From the NCBI GenBank assembly GCA_029820295.1, contig JALGVA010000095.1:1-34603 (forward strand): 34,603 bases of DNA. The letters are read 5' to 3'. The translations under genes were made by a program, and so were the position numbers. The notes beneath the pieces are model-generated. The model did no database searches. It was not told where the DNA came from and worked only from the letters and a program-made list of their open reading frames with translations. How positions within the stretch are numbered: position 1 is the stretch's first letter; the number at the start of each line of letters is the position of its first letter. Origin of the DNA: Candidatus Zipacnadia bacterium (GTDB lineage: Bacteria; Armatimonadota; Zipacnadia; Zipacnadales; UBA5352). Shown here one piece after another: positions 28,260 through 34,603 of this stretch.

Positions 28260-28322
28260 CCGATCGTCGCGCGGGCTTCGGGCCCGCCGGTGCCGGTACG
28301 CAACACGCCCGGGGAGAGAACG

Positions 28323-30287
28323 ATGGCGAGCGACAGCGCGCAGGACCAGGTCGTCTACATCACCACGCCGATCTACTACGTGACCGCCAAGCCGCACATC
28401 GGCACCACCTACACCACGACCGCGGCCGACGCGCTGGCACGCTACCATCGCCTGCGCGGTCGCGAAGTGCTGTTTGCCACGGGCAGCGACGAGCACGCGC
28501 AGAAGGTCGTCCGTGCCGCCCAGGCGGCCGGCCTCGACCCCCGTGCCTTCACCGACCGCGTGGTCACCGCCTACCTCGATGCCTGGGACCGCATGAAGAT
28601 CTCCTACGACCGGTTCATCCGCACCAGCGAGCCCGAGCACGTGGAGGTCGTCAGTCACGTCTTCGCGCGGCTGCTGGAGAGCGGCGACATCTACAAGGAC
28701 CGCTATGAGGGCTGGTACTGCGTGCCGTGCGAGACCTACTTCCCGGAGGATGAACTGCTCGAGGGCAATCTGTGCCCCGACTGCCACCGGGAGGTCGAGG
28801 TGCTCACCGAGGAGGCGTACTTCTTCCGCGCATCCCGCTACAGCAACGACCTGCTCCGCGAACTCGAAGCCAATCCCGAGCGCATCAAGCCCGACAGTCG
28901 CCGCAACGAGGTGCTGTCGTTCATCCGTCAGGGGCTGCAGGACAGTTGCGTGAGCCGCAGCAATCAGGGCTGGGGGGTGCCGGTGCCCGGCGACGAGGAG
29001 CACGTGGTCTACGTCTGGTTCGATGCGCTCATCAACTACCTCACCGTCGCCGGCTACACCGTGGACGACGCCAAGTTCGCGCGCGTGTGGCCGCCGACGA
29101 TCCAGCTCATGGGCAAGGACATCATGACGCGCTTCCACGGCAGCATGTGGCCCGCGATGCTCATGGCGCTGGGCGTGGAGCTGCCCGAGCTGCTGTTCGC
29201 GCACGGCTTCTGGGTTGCCGCCGGTGGAGAGAAGATCAGCAAGTCGCGCGGCAACATCGTGGACCCCTGGGATGCGGTCGAACTGCTGGTCGAGGAGTCA
29301 GGCTGCACGACCGATGTCGCGGTGGACGCGGTGCGTTACTACCTGTTCCGCGAGGTCACCTTCGGGCTCGACGGCACCTTCTCATCCGGGGGGCTGCTGG
29401 CGCGCTTCAACGCCGACCTCGCCAACGACCTGGGCAACCTGCTCAACCGCACGCTGCCGCTGGTGGAGCGCTTCCTCGAGGGCAGCATCGAGACCCCCGG
29501 CCCGGGGGCGGGGGAGCTGTCCGAGGACGTGGCCCGCGCGGTCGCGCGCGCGGAGGAGGGCTACGAGACCCTCGACCTGCGCGGCATGCTCGAGGGCATC
29601 TGGGAGCTGCTCGCATCGGCCAACAAGTTCGTGGATGAGCGCGCCCCGTGGGACCTGCACAAGGCCGGCAAGAAGGTGGAGCTGGCCGCCGTGCTCTACG
29701 ACGTGGTGGACACCATCCGCGTCGTCGCGCTGATGATCGCGCCGGTGATGCCCACGGTCGCCGAGGAGATCTGGCGCCAGCTCGGCCTCGAGGACCTGGC
29801 CCTGGAGATGCGCTGGGACGACTGCCAGGCGGGCAAGCTCCCCGCGGGCGCGAGCGTGCGCCGCGGGCGGCCCATCTTCCCGCGCATCGATCTCGACCGC
29901 GTGCGCCAGCGCAGCGCCGCCCGCGCGCAGCAGGAGGAGGCCGCCCGGCGGAAGGAAGAGGGCATGATCAGCTTCGACGAGTTCAAGAAGATGGACCTGC
30001 GCATCGCGCGGGTCGTGGACGCCGATCCGGTCGAGGGCGCCGACAAACTGCTCAAGCTGACGGTTGACTGCGGCGAGGACGAGCCGCGCCAGGTGGTGGC
30101 GGGCATCGCCGAGACCTTCTCGCCGCGGGAGCTGATCGGCGAGAGTGTGGTGCTGGTGGCCAACCTCGAGCCGGCGGAGATCCGCGGCGTGCAGTCGCAG
30201 GGGATGATCCTCGCCGCCGGCGAGAAGCAGCCGCTGGCTCTGATCGTGCCTGATCGTGACGTCGAGCCGGGGGAAAAGGTGCGCTGA
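28323..30287 (+). CDS. metG: Methionyl-tRNA synthetase with C-terminal tRNA-binding domain
   Basis: 654 residues. Class I signature HIGT (KPHIGTTYTTTAADAL) near residue 23, and KISKS at 304-308. A zinc knuckle has C133, C136, C151 and C154. The anticodon-binding helices follow, then an EMAP/Arc1p-like tRNA-binding OB fold from about 545 to the end (KKMDLRIARVVDADPVEGADK, then VQSQGMILAA). It charges tRNA-Met and initiator tRNA. ATG 28323 has GGGGAGAG just upstream. It is 63 bp after fmdB and 31 bp before the HD-GYP gene, probably in the same operon. A separate T-box is not seen here. Confidence 0.96.
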   Translation: MASDSAQDQVVYITTPIYYVTAKPHIGTTYTTTAADALARYHRLRGREVLFATGSDEHAQKVVRAAQAAGLDPRAFTDRVVTAYLDAWDRMKISYDRFIRTSEPEHVEVVSHVFARLLESGDIYKDRYEGWYCVPCETYFPEDELLEGNLCPDCHREVEVLTEEAYFFRASRYSNDLLRELEANPERIKPDSRRNEVLSFIRQGLQDSCVSRSNQGWGVPVPGDEEHVVYVWFDALINYLTVAGYTVDDAKFARVWPPTIQLMGKDIMTRFHGSMWPAMLMALGVELPELLFAHGFWVAAGGEKISKSRGNIVDPWDAVELLVEESGCTTDVAVDAVRYYLFREVTFGLDGTFSSGGLLARFNADLANDLGNLLNRTLPLVERFLEGSIETPGPGAGELSEDVARAVARAEEGYETLDLRGMLEGIWELLASANKFVDERAPWDLHKAGKKVELAAVLYDVVDTIRVVALMIAPVMPTVAEEIWRQLGLEDLALEMRWDDCQAGKLPAGASVRRGRPIFPRIDLDRVRQRSAARAQQEEAARRKEEGMISFDEFKKMDLRIARVVDADPVEGADKLLKLTVDCGEDEPRQVVAGIAETFSPRELIGESVVLVANLEPAEIRGVQSQGMILAAGEKQPLALIVPDRDVEPGEKVR

Positions 30288-30318
30288 TGCGAGAGCGACA
30301 CGAGCGTGGGGGCAACCT

Positions 30319-31860
30319 GTGAAGCTACGAGGCCGACGCAGAACCGCACTGCAGACGGTGCCCATCGTGCTGGCGGTGGTAGTCATCACCGTGCTGGTGG
30401 CGCTCACCGGCACCGACAGCATCGCGGTGCACTTCTACTACGTGCCGATCATCTACGCCGGCTTCATCTTCGGCGACTTCGGAGCCATCGTGACGGCCGT
30501 GGCCGCGGCTGTCGCGTGTGGACCGTGGATGCCGGCCAAACTGGTGGCCGAGGGCACTGAAACCGTGCGCGTCGCGCAGACCTGGTGGGACATCGGCCTG
30601 CGCACCGGCATCTTCTACGTCATGGGCATATTCGCCTCACGCGTGTCGTGGGCGATCGAGCGCCGCGCCACCCAGATGCGCACGCTCTATGAGGTCTCGC
30701 GCACCGTCTCATCGTCGCTACGCATCCGTCGGGTCCTCGACACCATCGCCCAGCAGGCCATCTCGGTCATGGATGCCCGCGCCTGCTCCATCCGCCTGCT
30801 CGACCCCGAGGGCGTTGAGCTGGAGCGCGCTGCGTCCTCGGGCCTGAGCGCGGAGTACTGGAACAAGGGCCCGGTTACGGTGGCCGACAGCCCCCTGGAT
30901 CGGCGCGTGCTGGCCGGCGAGACCGTGGCGGTCCTCGACGCGCAGACCGACCCGCTCTTCCAGTACCCGCAGGCGGCGCGCCAGGAGGGCCTGACCTCGG
31001 TGCTCAGCCTGCCGCTGCGTTCGCGCGACGATGTCCTGGGCGTCATGCGCATCTACGCCCACCGCAAGCGCAGGTTCCACGAGGACGAGGTCGAGCTGCT
31101 CAGGGCATTCGCCAACGCCGCCGCCATCGCCATCGAGAACGCCGAACTCTACGAGGAGAGCCGGCGCGGCTACTTCGAGACCATCCGCGCGCTGACCATC
31201 GCCATCGAGGCCCGCGACTCGGCGACCTACAGCCACTCCGAGCGCGTGACCGAGCTGGCCGACGAGCTGGCCGTGGAGCTGGGCATGAGCGAGGCCGAGC
31301 GCGAGATCCTGCGCTTCGGCTGCATCCTGCACGACATCGGCAAGATCGGCATCGAGGAGCGCATGATGGACGCGCGCGACACCGACGATGCCGCGCACAT
31401 CTTCTACCGCATGCATCCGCTCATCGGCCGCTCCATCCTGCGCCCGGTCACCTTCGCCCGGGAGTTCACGCCCATCGTCGTGCACCACCACGAGCGTTGG
31501 GACGGCTCAGGCTTCCCCGAAGGGCTGGAGGGTGAGGACATCCCGCTGATGGCGCGCCTGGTGGCGGTCGTCGACTCTTACGAGCGCGCGGTCAACCCCA
31601 CCGAATCACCCATGCCCATCAGCCCCGAGGAGGCCCTGCGCGGCATCGTGCGCGGCGCCGGCACCGCCTACGATCCCAAGATGGTCGCGGCCTTCGAGCG
31701 CGTCATGCGGCGGCGCTTCGAGGAGGGCCTCGACGATCCCGAGCCCGTGGGCGTGGGGCCCGAGATCGATATCGACGCCCTCATCGAGGAGGCCATCAAC
31801 GGCCTGTCGCTGCGCGACCCCGCCGACGACAACGCCTCGGCGGAGGCGGGGGAGGAGTGA
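30319..31860 (+). CDS. Membrane-bound GAF/HD-GYP signalling protein
   Basis: 513 residues starting at GTG 30319 with GGGGG 6-7 nt upstream. Residues 10-115 hold about three to four membrane helices in a MASE-like sensor region. A GAF domain covers about 130-290 (LRIRRVLDTIAQQAI, then VLSLPLRSRDDVLGVMRIY, AFANAAAIAIENAELY). The HD-GYP phosphodiesterase follows: HSERVTELADELA, HDIGK at H338-D339, and HHHERWDGSGFPEGL at 389-403. GYP reads GFP (G398-F399-P400), a tolerated variant. It would hydrolyse cyclic di-GMP in response to a membrane or small-molecule signal. The next gene begins 4 bp later, so it is cotranscribed with the transglutaminase-like gene. Confidence 0.92.
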   Translation: MKLRGRRRTALQTVPIVLAVVVITVLVALTGTDSIAVHFYYVPIIYAGFIFGDFGAIVTAVAAAVACGPWMPAKLVAEGTETVRVAQTWWDIGLRTGIFYVMGIFASRVSWAIERRATQMRTLYEVSRTVSSSLRIRRVLDTIAQQAISVMDARACSIRLLDPEGVELERAASSGLSAEYWNKGPVTVADSPLDRRVLAGETVAVLDAQTDPLFQYPQAARQEGLTSVLSLPLRSRDDVLGVMRIYAHRKRRFHEDEVELLRAFANAAAIAIENAELYEESRRGYFETIRALTIAIEARDSATYSHSERVTELADELAVELGMSEAEREILRFGCILHDIGKIGIEERMMDARDTDDAAHIFYRMHPLIGRSILRPVTFAREFTPIVVHHHERWDGSGFPEGLEGEDIPLMARLVAVVDSYERAVNPTESPMPISPEEALRGIVRGAGTAYDPKMVAAFERVMRRRFEEGLDDPEPVGVGPEIDIDALIEEAINGLSLRDPADDNASAEAGEE

Positions 31861-31864
31861 CGTC

Positions 31865-33394
31865 ATGCACGCCCGACTCCGAGCGCTCATCCCCGTAGCG
31901 GCGGCGCTGATCGTGTTCACCCCCGCCTGCGCCACGCTGACCGTGGCGCCACCCACCCCCGAGGAGCTGGCGCAGTTGGTCGGCATCGAGTGGTACCGCG
32001 TTCAGGTGATGGGCCGGCCCAACGGCTACGCCTGCATCGAGACCGAGGTGCTGGACACCCCCGACGGGCCGCGACTGCGCGTCACCGAGGACGTGAAGAT
32101 CCTCATCGCCCTCGCGGGCCGGCGGCTGGAGGCATCGAAGCATCAGGTCAGCGTGTTCGGCGAGGACCTGCGCCCGGTCACCATCGAGCTGGACAAGAAC
32201 GAGATGGGCCGGGCCTCGCACCTGTCCGCGCACCTGGAGGGCGACACGCTCACCGTCGAGAGCGGCTCGGCAGAGCCGGGCGCGCCGCCGCCCGCGGTCA
32301 AGACCATCGACGTGCCCCCGGACCTGTCCTCCGATCTGGCCATCGCCATCGGAGTCGTGCGCGGCGAGCTGGACGTGGGCGACGGCCTGGAGTACTCCGT
32401 GTACGACGCCGAGCTTGACCTCATCGATCGCCACGTGGTCACCGTGGACCGGCGCGAGCCGCTCGACGGCGTCGATGCCCTGGTGATCTCCGCACGCAGC
32501 GAGAGCCTGGACATCGATGTGCTCAGTTGGGTCGATGACGCCGGGGTGATGCTGCGCCAGAGCGTGCCGGGGCTCATGGACCTCACCCTCGACCGCGTAA
32601 GCGAGGAGGAGGCGCTGGCGAGCCTCGTGCCCTTCGAGCTGGACAACAGGGTCGCGGTCGAGCACCATCTGCCCATCGTGCGCAGCCTCGCCGACGTGAT
32701 GCTGCGCGTGCGTCGCGCCGCCGGACCAGCGGACGAGCTGATCCCGGTCAGCGACCGGCAGAGCGTGGTGCCCGAGGGCGAGGACGCGCTGGTGACCATC
32801 CACCGCGAGCGGCCGCCCGACGCCGGCCTGCCGCTGCCCATCACCGGCGAGTCGCTGGCCGAGTACCTGCAGCCCACCCGGGCGGCGCAGTCCGACGACC
32901 CGCGCATCGTGGACACCGCGCGCGAGATCATCGGCGATGAGACCGACGCCTGGGGCGCGGCGCAACTGCTGTGTGCCTGGGTGCACCGCTCCATGCACAA
33001 GGTCTCCAGCGAGCCGCGCCCGATCACCGCGCTCGAGATCCTCGACGCCATGCGCGGCGACTGCACCGAGCACGCCATCCTGCTGGCCACGCTGGCGCGC
33101 GCCGTCGGCCTGCCCACGAAGCTGGTCACCGGCCTGGCCTACGTCGGCGGCGGCTTCGGCTATCACGCCTGGACGCAGGTCTACGTCGGCCGCTGGGTGG
33201 AGATGGACCCGGCGTGGGGCGAGATGACCGCCGACGCCGGGCACCTGATGATCTACGCCAGCGCGCTGGATGACGCGTCCTACGCCCGCGCCGCGCTCGC
33301 CACCGGCCGCACCATCGGCGCCATCGAGATCGATCTGCTCGGCTACACCGCTGCCGACGGCCGCAAGGTCCGCTTCGGGGAGGAAGCGCCATGA
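31865..33394 (+). CDS. Exported transglutaminase-like protein
   Basis: 509 residues with an N-terminal signal (hydrophobic residues 8-21; the TPAC at 17-20 is not a good lipobox). The first ~370 residues are an unrecognised beta-rich region. The C-terminal transglutaminase-like domain has the Cys-His-Asp triad in its usual order: C400 in RGDCTEHAILLATLARAVG, H434 in YHAWTQVYVG and D448 in VEMDPAWG. Such domains are proteases or crosslinkers of the envelope. Neighbours: the HD-GYP gene 4 bp before, and an ATGA overlap with the next gene. Confidence 0.88.
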   Translation: MHARLRALIPVAAALIVFTPACATLTVAPPTPEELAQLVGIEWYRVQVMGRPNGYACIETEVLDTPDGPRLRVTEDVKILIALAGRRLEASKHQVSVFGEDLRPVTIELDKNEMGRASHLSAHLEGDTLTVESGSAEPGAPPPAVKTIDVPPDLSSDLAIAIGVVRGELDVGDGLEYSVYDAELDLIDRHVVTVDRREPLDGVDALVISARSESLDIDVLSWVDDAGVMLRQSVPGLMDLTLDRVSEEEALASLVPFELDNRVAVEHHLPIVRSLADVMLRVRRAAGPADELIPVSDRQSVVPEGEDALVTIHRERPPDAGLPLPITGESLAEYLQPTRAAQSDDPRIVDTAREIIGDETDAWGAAQLLCAWVHRSMHKVSSEPRPITALEILDAMRGDCTEHAILLATLARAVGLPTKLVTGLAYVGGGFGYHAWTQVYVGRWVEMDPAWGEMTADAGHLMIYASALDDASYARAALATGRTIGAIEIDLLGYTAADGRKVRFGEEAP

Positions 33395-34603
33395 GACACG
33401 TGACGGCCGCGCTGCTGCTGATCGCCGGCGCCGCTGCGGGCTTCTGCCAGGACCCGCCCCCCGAGCCCCCCGCGCCGCCCCTTACGCCCCGGGTCGGGGA
33501 GAGCGAGGCGCAGGGGGAGGGCCAGGTGGTGATGATGACGGCGCGCTGGCCCGGCCGCGACGACATGTCCAACACCGCCTTCCGCGTCTTCAGCGACCAG
33601 GCGCTCACCGAGCTGGTGGACGTCTTCCCCGCCGGCGGCGCCGGGGGCTCGGCCATCATGGCCCTGCGCCCGGGCGAGTACTACGTGATGGCCGTGGTTG
33701 ACGCCAACGGCAACGGGCAGGCCGATCCGGGCGACGGCTTCGGCTTCTACGGCGTCACCGACCTGTCCCCCGAGTCCCGTCCGCAGCCGCTCGTCGTGCG
33801 CGATGATGCCATCAACGCCGGCAGGATTACCATCCTCATGACCATCGGCGAGGACGGTCGGCTCGTCCCCATCGCTGAGGCCATCGCCGCCGCGGATGGC
33901 TACGTGGCCGGCTCGGTCGTCGGCGCCGCGGCGCCCCTCTTCATCCTGCTCGTGCCGGTCGACGAGGCAGGCCACCCGGTCGCGGTGCTGGCGGACGAGG
34001 AGGGCGCGTGGCGCGCAACCGCCTCGCCCGGGCAGTACCGCCTGTGCGCGCTGTCCGACGCCAACGCCGACGGCATCCTCGGCGCGGGCGATCCCATCGC
34101 GCTCATCGGCTTCGGCGAGGACGAGCCCCTGACCGTAAAGCCGGGTGAGGAGCTGGCCGTCACCCCGCCGGCCCTCTCCCCTGCCGCCGAGCCGCCGGCG
34201 GGCATCCCGCCCGTCTGCGCCGGGCGCGTCACCGGCATCACGCCGCCCGAGGGCGCGATCATCCAGGTCGCGTTCTGCACCGATGCCGCGCTGCGCCGGC
34301 AGGCCTTCGCGGTCGCCGCCGATGCCTCAGGCCGCTTCGTGGCCGCGGCGGCGCCGGGAGCGTACTACCTGCGCGCGACCGTGGACCAGGCGGGCGACGG
34401 CACCCTCGGGGCCGGTGACATGCTCGGCTTCTACGGCGTCGCCGACCTGATGGGCGGCGACACGCCCCAGCCGCTGGCCATGGTCGCCGGCGCGCTGCGC
34501 ACCGACGTGACCATCGCCATCACCGCGCGCATCGGCGAGGACGGCCGCCTCACCACCTACACCGCACCCGACCCGGATACCACCGCACCAGGAGACGCAG
34601 CAG
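33391..34603 (+). CDS. Exported repeat protein, 3' end outside the window
   Basis: Reads from ATG 33391 (overlapping the previous stop as ATGA) to the end of the window, at least 404 codons. A signal peptide (hydrophobic residues 5-17) is followed by a Pro-rich linker. Three modules follow, marked by YYVMAVVDANGNGQADPGDG (about D104), YRLCALSDANADGILGAGD (about D223) and YYLRATVDQAGDGTLGAGD (about D332), spaced 119 and 109 residues. Each ends near FGFYGV or its equivalent. The D-x-N-x-D/N-G pattern resembles calcium loops, and the whole recalls DUF2141-type or carboxypeptidase-regulatory beta-sandwich modules. It is likely to be a secreted or surface protein. Confidence 0.75.
   Translation, partial: MRHVTAALLLIAGAAAGFCQDPPPEPPAPPLTPRVGESEAQGEGQVVMMTARWPGRDDMSNTAFRVFSDQALTELVDVFPAGGAGGSAIMALRPGEYYVMAVVDANGNGQADPGDGFGFYGVTDLSPESRPQPLVVRDDAINAGRITILMTIGEDGRLVPIAEAIAAADGYVAGSVVGAAAPLFILLVPVDEAGHPVAVLADEEGAWRATASPGQYRLCALSDANADGILGAGDPIALIGFGEDEPLTVKPGEELAVTPPALSPAAEPPAGIPPVCAGRVTGITPPEGAIIQVAFCTDAALRRQAFAVAADASGRFVAAAAPGAYYLRATVDQAGDGTLGAGDMLGFYGVADLMGGDTPQPLAMVAGALRTDVTIAITARIGEDGRLTTYTAPDPDTTAPGDAA

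Follow-up and report, generated by a model that had tools for sequence, protein, structure and literature searches.

A cytosolic nucleotide signal paired with a periplasmic cysteine protease is the general idea of the Lap system (LapA/LapD/LapG; PMC3032545, PMC4359373), whose receptor LapD is a HAMP-GGDEF-EAL protein (PMC13090378). The Dvh system of Desulfovibrio vulgaris brings together DvhD, an HD-GYP protein whose HD motif is degenerate (SQ) and which carries PAS and periplasmic dCache domains, the transglutaminase-like cysteine protease DvhG, of the BTLCP type, and the large adhesin DvhA; a gene for a secretion system is part of the same operon (PMC13090378). Individual parts of the locus considered here also have described counterparts, namely EipB of Brucella (DUF1849; 6ntr), which serves envelope integrity in the periplasm and is encoded in a conserved neighbourhood of envelope genes (PMC10787603), and the GAF/HD-GYP protein PmGH of Persephonella marina (4mcw; PMC4159591).

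With Dvh, the Candidatus Zipacnadia cluster shares an operon of an HD-GYP membrane protein, a transglutaminase-like Cys-His-Asp enzyme and a putative surface protein, and with Lap the general idea only. It differs from Dvh, as that system is described, in an intact HD motif, a GAF domain, the lack of an evident periplasmic domain, an enzyme of DUF3108 type, a repeat protein of ∼406 amino acids rather than a large adhesin, and a D-Ala-D-Ala ligase gene (ddl) as the next gene (PMC13090378). No LapD-type HAMP-GGDEF-EAL receptor was found in the cluster, and no secretion genes among the Pfam-identified neighbouring genes. A first-pass annotation of this DNA had known of no described system with this exact composition; as an HD-GYP protein is able to replace LapD in Dvh, the composition is not without precedent, and that claim gives way to a system of the same ingredients with many differing details (PMC13090378). 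A search of a limited set of literature found no paper on this Zipacnadia cluster, and a term search of a Zipacnadia paper (PMC10290634) found transglutaminase, c-di-GMP and peptidoglycan unmentioned. The cluster is real, kept across much of this uncultured class and envelope-linked, combining known parts in a new variant whose function is predicted.

The DNA analysed (the window; 34,603 nucleotides) is the entire contig C164 of the source genome (5.63 Mb, 98.6% complete), with the features of its distal end collected in Table 1. Pfam identifies mfd, a PSP1-domain gene and a small zinc-ribbon gene 5' of metG. The 4-bp or ATGA spacing previously claimed for the three genes following metG applies from the HD-GYP gene onwards, with 4 nt before the transglutaminase gene and a 4-nt ATGA overlap between the latter and the repeat gene; the distance from metG to the HD-GYP gene is 31 nt. 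The window ends with its contig, so that the last two codons before the stop of the repeat gene are missing. The source genome has one close ddl gene, at the extreme end of the 4,982-base contig C135, and the final 10 bases of C164 equal the initial 10 of C135 in reverse reading. Joined in frame, the two contigs extend the repeat protein by Gly-Glu and a stop, two codons past 34603, with the ddl start 2 nt on, exactly as far away as it is in G001, G004, G005, G006 and G008. The join is likely because the frame fits and the same order is found in relatives, the 10-base overlap being weak by itself; through contig C135 and the order in relatives, the gene beyond the window's end, which the first-pass annotation had left to be found, is probably ddl, here encoding a standard ligase (Pfam PF07478).

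Table 1. Features at the distal end of the window (positions on contig C164)
Feature	Position	Strand	Basis
metG, methionyl-tRNA synthetase, upstream housekeeping neighbour	28290..30287	+	Pfam tRNA-synt_1g 1e-94
GAF/HD-GYP protein with N-terminal membrane segments (GTG start at 30319; stop codon ends at 31860)	30319..31860	+	HD_5 1.1e-27, GAF_2 5.7e-20; hydropathy
GAF domain	30724..31137	+	Pfam; residues 138-275 of the 515-aa reading starting at 30313
HD-GYP domain with HD and HHExWDGxGFP motifs but no RPYR	31201..31680	+	Pfam, alignment
Transglutaminase-like enzyme, membrane-anchored or exported (predicted), N-terminal DUF3108/EipB-like domain	31865..33394	+	
DUF3108/EipB-like beta-barrel domain (residues 35-247)	31967..32605	+	structure model, fold match, Pfam in relatives
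Transglut_core	32915..33211	+	Pfam 2.6e-19
Triad codons C400, H434, D448	33062-33064, 33164-33166, 33206-33208	+	25/25 alignment
Repeat protein (predicted exported), three CnaB/carboxypeptidase-regulatory-like domains (ATG start at 33391)	33391..34603, open at end	+	model, fold matches
Calcium-loop-like DANGNGQADPGD, domain 1	33700..33735	+	sequence
Calcium-loop-like DANADGILGAGD, domain 2	34057..34092	+	sequence
Loop DQAGDGTLGAGD, domain 3	34384..34419	+	sequence

Conservation was assessed in 41 genomes of the order, source genome included. The HD-GYP gene is found in all 41, with metG immediately 5' in 39 and cut by contig ends in the other two (G035, G037). A full-family transglutaminase (E<=1e-20) is present in 31/41, a looser cut-off (E<=0.001) giving 35/41 with a surplus of short domain matches; it adjoins the HD-GYP gene in 30 of the 31, the pair being split by contig ends in G023, and the nearest possible enzyme start lies 4 nt past the HD-GYP stop in 8/10 genomes of the family. 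Each of the 23 genomes featuring the repeat gene also features the enzyme (23/23); the repeat gene is directly 3' of the enzyme gene in 17, follows one intervening TIM-barrel gene (Pfam AP_endonuc_2) in four, and lies elsewhere, accompanied by ddl, in two (G035, G036). The enzyme occurs without the repeat gene in 8/31 genomes: five of genus g9, where ddl is immediately 3' of the enzyme gene, and three of g13, where a radical SAM gene follows. Neither gene is found in ten genomes (genera g8 and g19), whose HD-GYP gene is still 3' of metG where the contig permits. Where the contig continues, ddl follows the repeat gene in 16/20 genomes, at 2-3 nt in 7/8 measurable genomes of the family; as the next gene it was not found in genomes with the TIM-barrel insertion, nor in g13. 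Two genomes of two further families of the class (G286, on two contigs, and G287) have the same order, TIM-barrel gene included. Elsewhere this order was not seen: around the HD-GYP homologues of two other genomes of the class (L107, L108) and five of the phylum (L109-L113), no match to metG was found in the stretch retrieved. A protein search of named genomes identified six loci with enzyme homologues (37-71% identical), four in Candidatus Zipacnadia and two in Armatimonadetes, which places the window in this part of the phylum Armatimonadota.

Recurrence in relatives argues that the order is not due to chance; a Fisher test of enzyme against repeat gene (23/8/0/10; p 3.9e-5) treats genomes as independent and is set aside because the absences cluster in few clades. 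The set of three genes proposed in the first-pass annotation is upheld as conserved and tightly spaced beside metG, recurring in much of the order and in two more families of the class; enzyme and repeat gene are contiguous in 17 of the 23 order genomes having the repeat gene and apart in two of them, and the set is incomplete in the 8/31 enzyme genomes that have no repeat gene. In seven g8 genomes and G033, a methyltransferase gene follows the HD-GYP gene in the place of the enzyme gene; at these loci (L080-L084, L087-L089), an RMKL-like methyltransferase and a ∼760-aa protein with no Pfam match replace the enzyme.

The enzyme belongs to the Transglutaminase-like superfamily (PF01841) by its core match and its Cys-His-Asp triad, which is invariant across the aligned relatives, incomplete or frame-broken ones being left out. 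In its structure model (mean pLDDT 88.4), a domain resembling a beta-barrel occupies the N-terminal part, and a transglutaminase core is also present. Residues 35-247 match EipB (6ntr) with Z 16.9 and rmsd 3.0 over 199 aligned residues (VIA-align), and Pfam DUF3108 is detected at E<=0.01 in 6/25 family members, with no sequence match to DUF1849 (EipB) listed for the family. Residues 275-497 match 3isr, a putative cysteine protease of Cytophaga hutchinsonii, with Z 18.8 and rmsd 3.5 over 205 aligned residues (profile E 3.5e-13), a likeness of the catalytic half that does not cover the DUF3108-like half. The catalytic domain also aligns with LapG (Z 9.5, rmsd 3.1, 134 aligned) and TgpA (Z 9.8), and shares its core fold with the pseudomurein endoisopeptidases PeiW and PeiP (Z 8.1). 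No Pfam match to Peptidase_C93, the LapG/BTLCP family, was found at E<=1. The predicted fold of the N-terminal domain resembles that of EipB, which is described as a barrel alone (PMC10787603), whereas here the barrel is fused to a transglutaminase core. A hydrophobic segment at residues 7-25 is evident by hydropathy and, as the first-pass annotation had proposed, both the enzyme and the repeat protein look exported, judged by eye and by hydropathy from their N-terminal hydrophobic stretches.

Three further Transglut_core proteins are encoded in the source genome, and the enzyme family extends to 181/291 of the Armatimonadota genomes searched (E<=1e-20). Relatives outside the class adjoin atpC, PIN-TRAM or dapF (L118, L115, L119, L121; one or two loci each): in G245 the gene is immediately before dapF (DAP epimerase, a wall-precursor gene), and in G265 it is followed by a different type of GGDEF-HD-GYP gene. 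With this breadth and these other neighbours, neither the HD-GYP protein nor the repeat protein appears to be needed by the enzyme. Since Ddl belongs to the ATP-grasp enzymes, an Anbu-type operon, which combines a transglutaminase with an ATP-grasp protein (PMC5666114), was weighed as well; this identity was rejected, Ddl being a standard ligase (PF07478) and the enzyme seemingly exported.

For the HD-GYP protein, hydropathy indicates hydrophobic segments at residues 11-29 and 44-67 with only a short loop between them, and no evident periplasmic output domain of the Dvh/Lap type. Motifs were counted in 37 aligned sequences of >400 aa, outside of which fall G037 and G038 (<400 aa) and G018 and G019 (not called by the ORF script). 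The HD motif and HHExxDGxG[YF]P are present in 37/37, with the Tyr of GYP replaced by Phe in all. The closely matching PmGH (4mcw; E 3.6e-33) has the same GAF and HD-GYP arrangement, and seven of its eight metal ligands are kept here (H306, H338, D339, H366, H390 and H391 in 37/37; D419 in 36/37); the E185 position is Ala in 27/37, and the equivalents of D183 and K225 are retained. Differences from PmGH are this mostly Ala position, Phe for Y285, added membrane segments and the absence of R314/K317, the guanine-binding residues of the RPYR/K motif (PMC4159591), found in 0/37; the GGDEF-HD-GYP of G265, taken as a control, carries NRPYRK. In PmGH, R314A and K317A leave activity largely intact and E185A lowers it without abolishing it (PMC4159591), so that the missing RPYR speaks against confident naming and not against activity.

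The HD-GYP enzyme is, from these residues, probably live, with c-di-GMP as a candidate substrate. The source genome has one HD_5 match, one response-regulator diguanylate cyclase (GGEEL), two weak GGDEF matches and no match to PilZ; no GGDEF match better than 1e-30 is found in 10/41 order genomes, all ten of which keep the HD-GYP gene and three of which (G005, G016, G027) are >=90% complete. The earlier label of c-di-GMP phosphodiesterase is consistent with the metal site, and is at odds with the absent guanine motif, the ten genomes with no strong GGDEF match and the lack of a PilZ match in the source genome. A defence role was also discarded, PADLOC matches to the HD domain being only weak Cas3-HD ones. 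In HD-GYP homologues outside the order (L106-L113), Asn replaces the last metal-ligand Asp (VVNAYD type), which suggests a branch whose metal site is changed or inactive.

The repeats of the ∼406-aa repeat protein, recognised in the first-pass annotation, are genuine: its model (mean pLDDT 79.8, pTM 0.58) consists of three beta-sandwich domains with fold matches of up to Z 10.5, each domain having an aspartate-rich loop (DANGNGQADPGD, DANADGILGAGD and DQAGDGTLGAGD), two of them of DxNxxG type. Residues D104 and D115 of the domain 1 loop are invariant (10/10), and the loops may bind calcium. DUF2141 (PF09912), the only Pfam hit, scores 21.0 bits against the source protein, below the cut-off of 24.4, and is matched at E<=0.01 in 7/10 aligned members, with 34.4 bits for a class relative in L106. 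A sortase/CnaB pilin identity was dismissed, the fold matches being mostly single-domain and generic (Z 7-10). The distribution of the two genes does not call for the further proposal of an enzyme acting on the repeat protein, since eight of the 31 enzyme genomes have no repeat gene and two of the 23 with both carry them apart. In G001, of the same genus, the repeat gene (L033 330-1527) is spread over two frames and is therefore broken or misassembled there. Domain 1 matches 3e8v, part of a protein of the transglutaminase family from Bacteroides, with Z 8.9, a hint only.

The favoured reading, held at about even chances, is that the last genes of a conserved operon-like row form an envelope-maintenance module linked by co-expression. 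The exported enzyme would use its DUF3108/EipB-like barrel to hold a substrate of the envelope, which its Cys-His-Asp core would cut or re-link; the repeat protein would be an accessory beta-sandwich protein, probably calcium-stabilised, in the same compartment; Ddl would provide D-Ala-D-Ala for new wall; and the membrane GAF/HD-GYP enzyme would lower a cyclic dinucleotide inside the cell. Co-expression would connect signal and enzyme, as no domain of the HD-GYP protein evidently reaches into the periplasm. Support comes from the HD-GYP/enzyme adjacency (30/31, and two further families of the class) at 4-nt spacing (8/10), ddl after the repeat gene (16/20 and the source genome), the enzyme's presence wherever the repeat gene occurs, the conserved triad (25/25), the EipB-like N-terminal fold (PMC10787603) and the dapF neighbour in G245; against it stand the other neighbours of the enzyme outside the class and an HD-GYP gene that stays by metG without the enzyme. 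The main rival, rather unlikely in our estimate, is a slowly changing housekeeping row of three separate jobs, its order due to descent and to shared transcription from the metG region. As a rough baseline, all called ORFs of the window were compared with the region past mfd of 15 relatives, several of these regions being short at contig ends: ribosomal protein S6 (rpsF) is matched in 15/15, ssb in 13/15 and a ROK gene in 11/15 (names by Pfam), giving the row rpsF, ssb, ROK kinase, mfd, PSP1, zinc-ribbon, metG, HD-GYP, transglutaminase-like, repeat and ddl. With rpsF, ssb and ROK in it, retention of the cluster may reflect a stable housekeeping block, and the step from kept order to joint function is weakened for three genes within mostly unrelated housekeeping genes, where the HD-GYP gene follows metG even without the enzyme, the repeat gene may be missing, and a TIM-barrel, radical SAM or methyltransferase gene may intervene or substitute. 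Further upstream, however, one ORF matched once (G021) and the 17 called ORFs upstream of ∼18000 have no match in any of the 15 relatives, several of them represented by short stretches, so that the row is more held together than its surroundings; the presence of the enzyme in every order genome with the repeat gene (23/23) also speaks against separate jobs.

A switch of the Lap/Dvh kind, in which the HD-GYP protein would read c-di-GMP and free or block a transglutaminase-like protease cutting a calcium-loop surface protein off the cell, is very unlikely: the three ingredients are those of Dvh (PMC13090378) and the catalytic domain aligns with LapG, but the HD motif is intact in 37/37, whereas DvhD is degenerate (SQ) with a periplasmic dCache domain (PMC13090378), only short loops separate the membrane segments, Peptidase_C93 is unmatched at E<=1, RPYR is absent from all 37 sequences, and the ∼406-aa repeat protein is no giant adhesin and is missing in 8/31 enzyme genomes. 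With Dvh's dead receptor, sensor domain and giant adhesin missing here, the co-expressed envelope module is favoured. Very improbable as well is an enzyme acting on peptidoglycan peptides, or tying the repeat protein to them, and travelling with ddl for that reason, to which the placement of ddl directly 3' of the enzyme gene in the five g9 genomes, its 2-3 nt distance from the repeat gene in 7/8 family genomes, the dapF neighbour and the PeiW/PeiP core fold would lend weight. Ddl works in the cytoplasm, however, away from a seemingly exported enzyme, Z ∼8 may be merely a common arrangement, and ddl was not found as the next gene in genomes with the TIM-barrel insertion, nor in g13. A further proposal, in our judgement improbable, is a third, independently assembled nucleotide-linked envelope-processing system, where an HD-GYP enzyme of altered nucleotide specificity would control, with the DUF3108-fused transglutaminase, how a small CnaB-like envelope protein stabilised by calcium is cut or cross-linked to the wall, keeping pace with the wall precursors supplied through ddl.

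Should the cluster work as a single unit, it would connect nucleotide signals with the processing of the envelope in a phylum whose genetics are little developed, and would suggest what the transglutaminase family matched in 181/291 Armatimonadota genomes does; if not, the locus shows how easily a tidy operon invites a story, with the repeat protein and the HD-GYP gene each separable from the enzyme. As a minor observation on the enzyme's N-terminal region, residues 22-246 match chain Xh of 9fqr, a bovine sperm axoneme structure, with Z 18.5.
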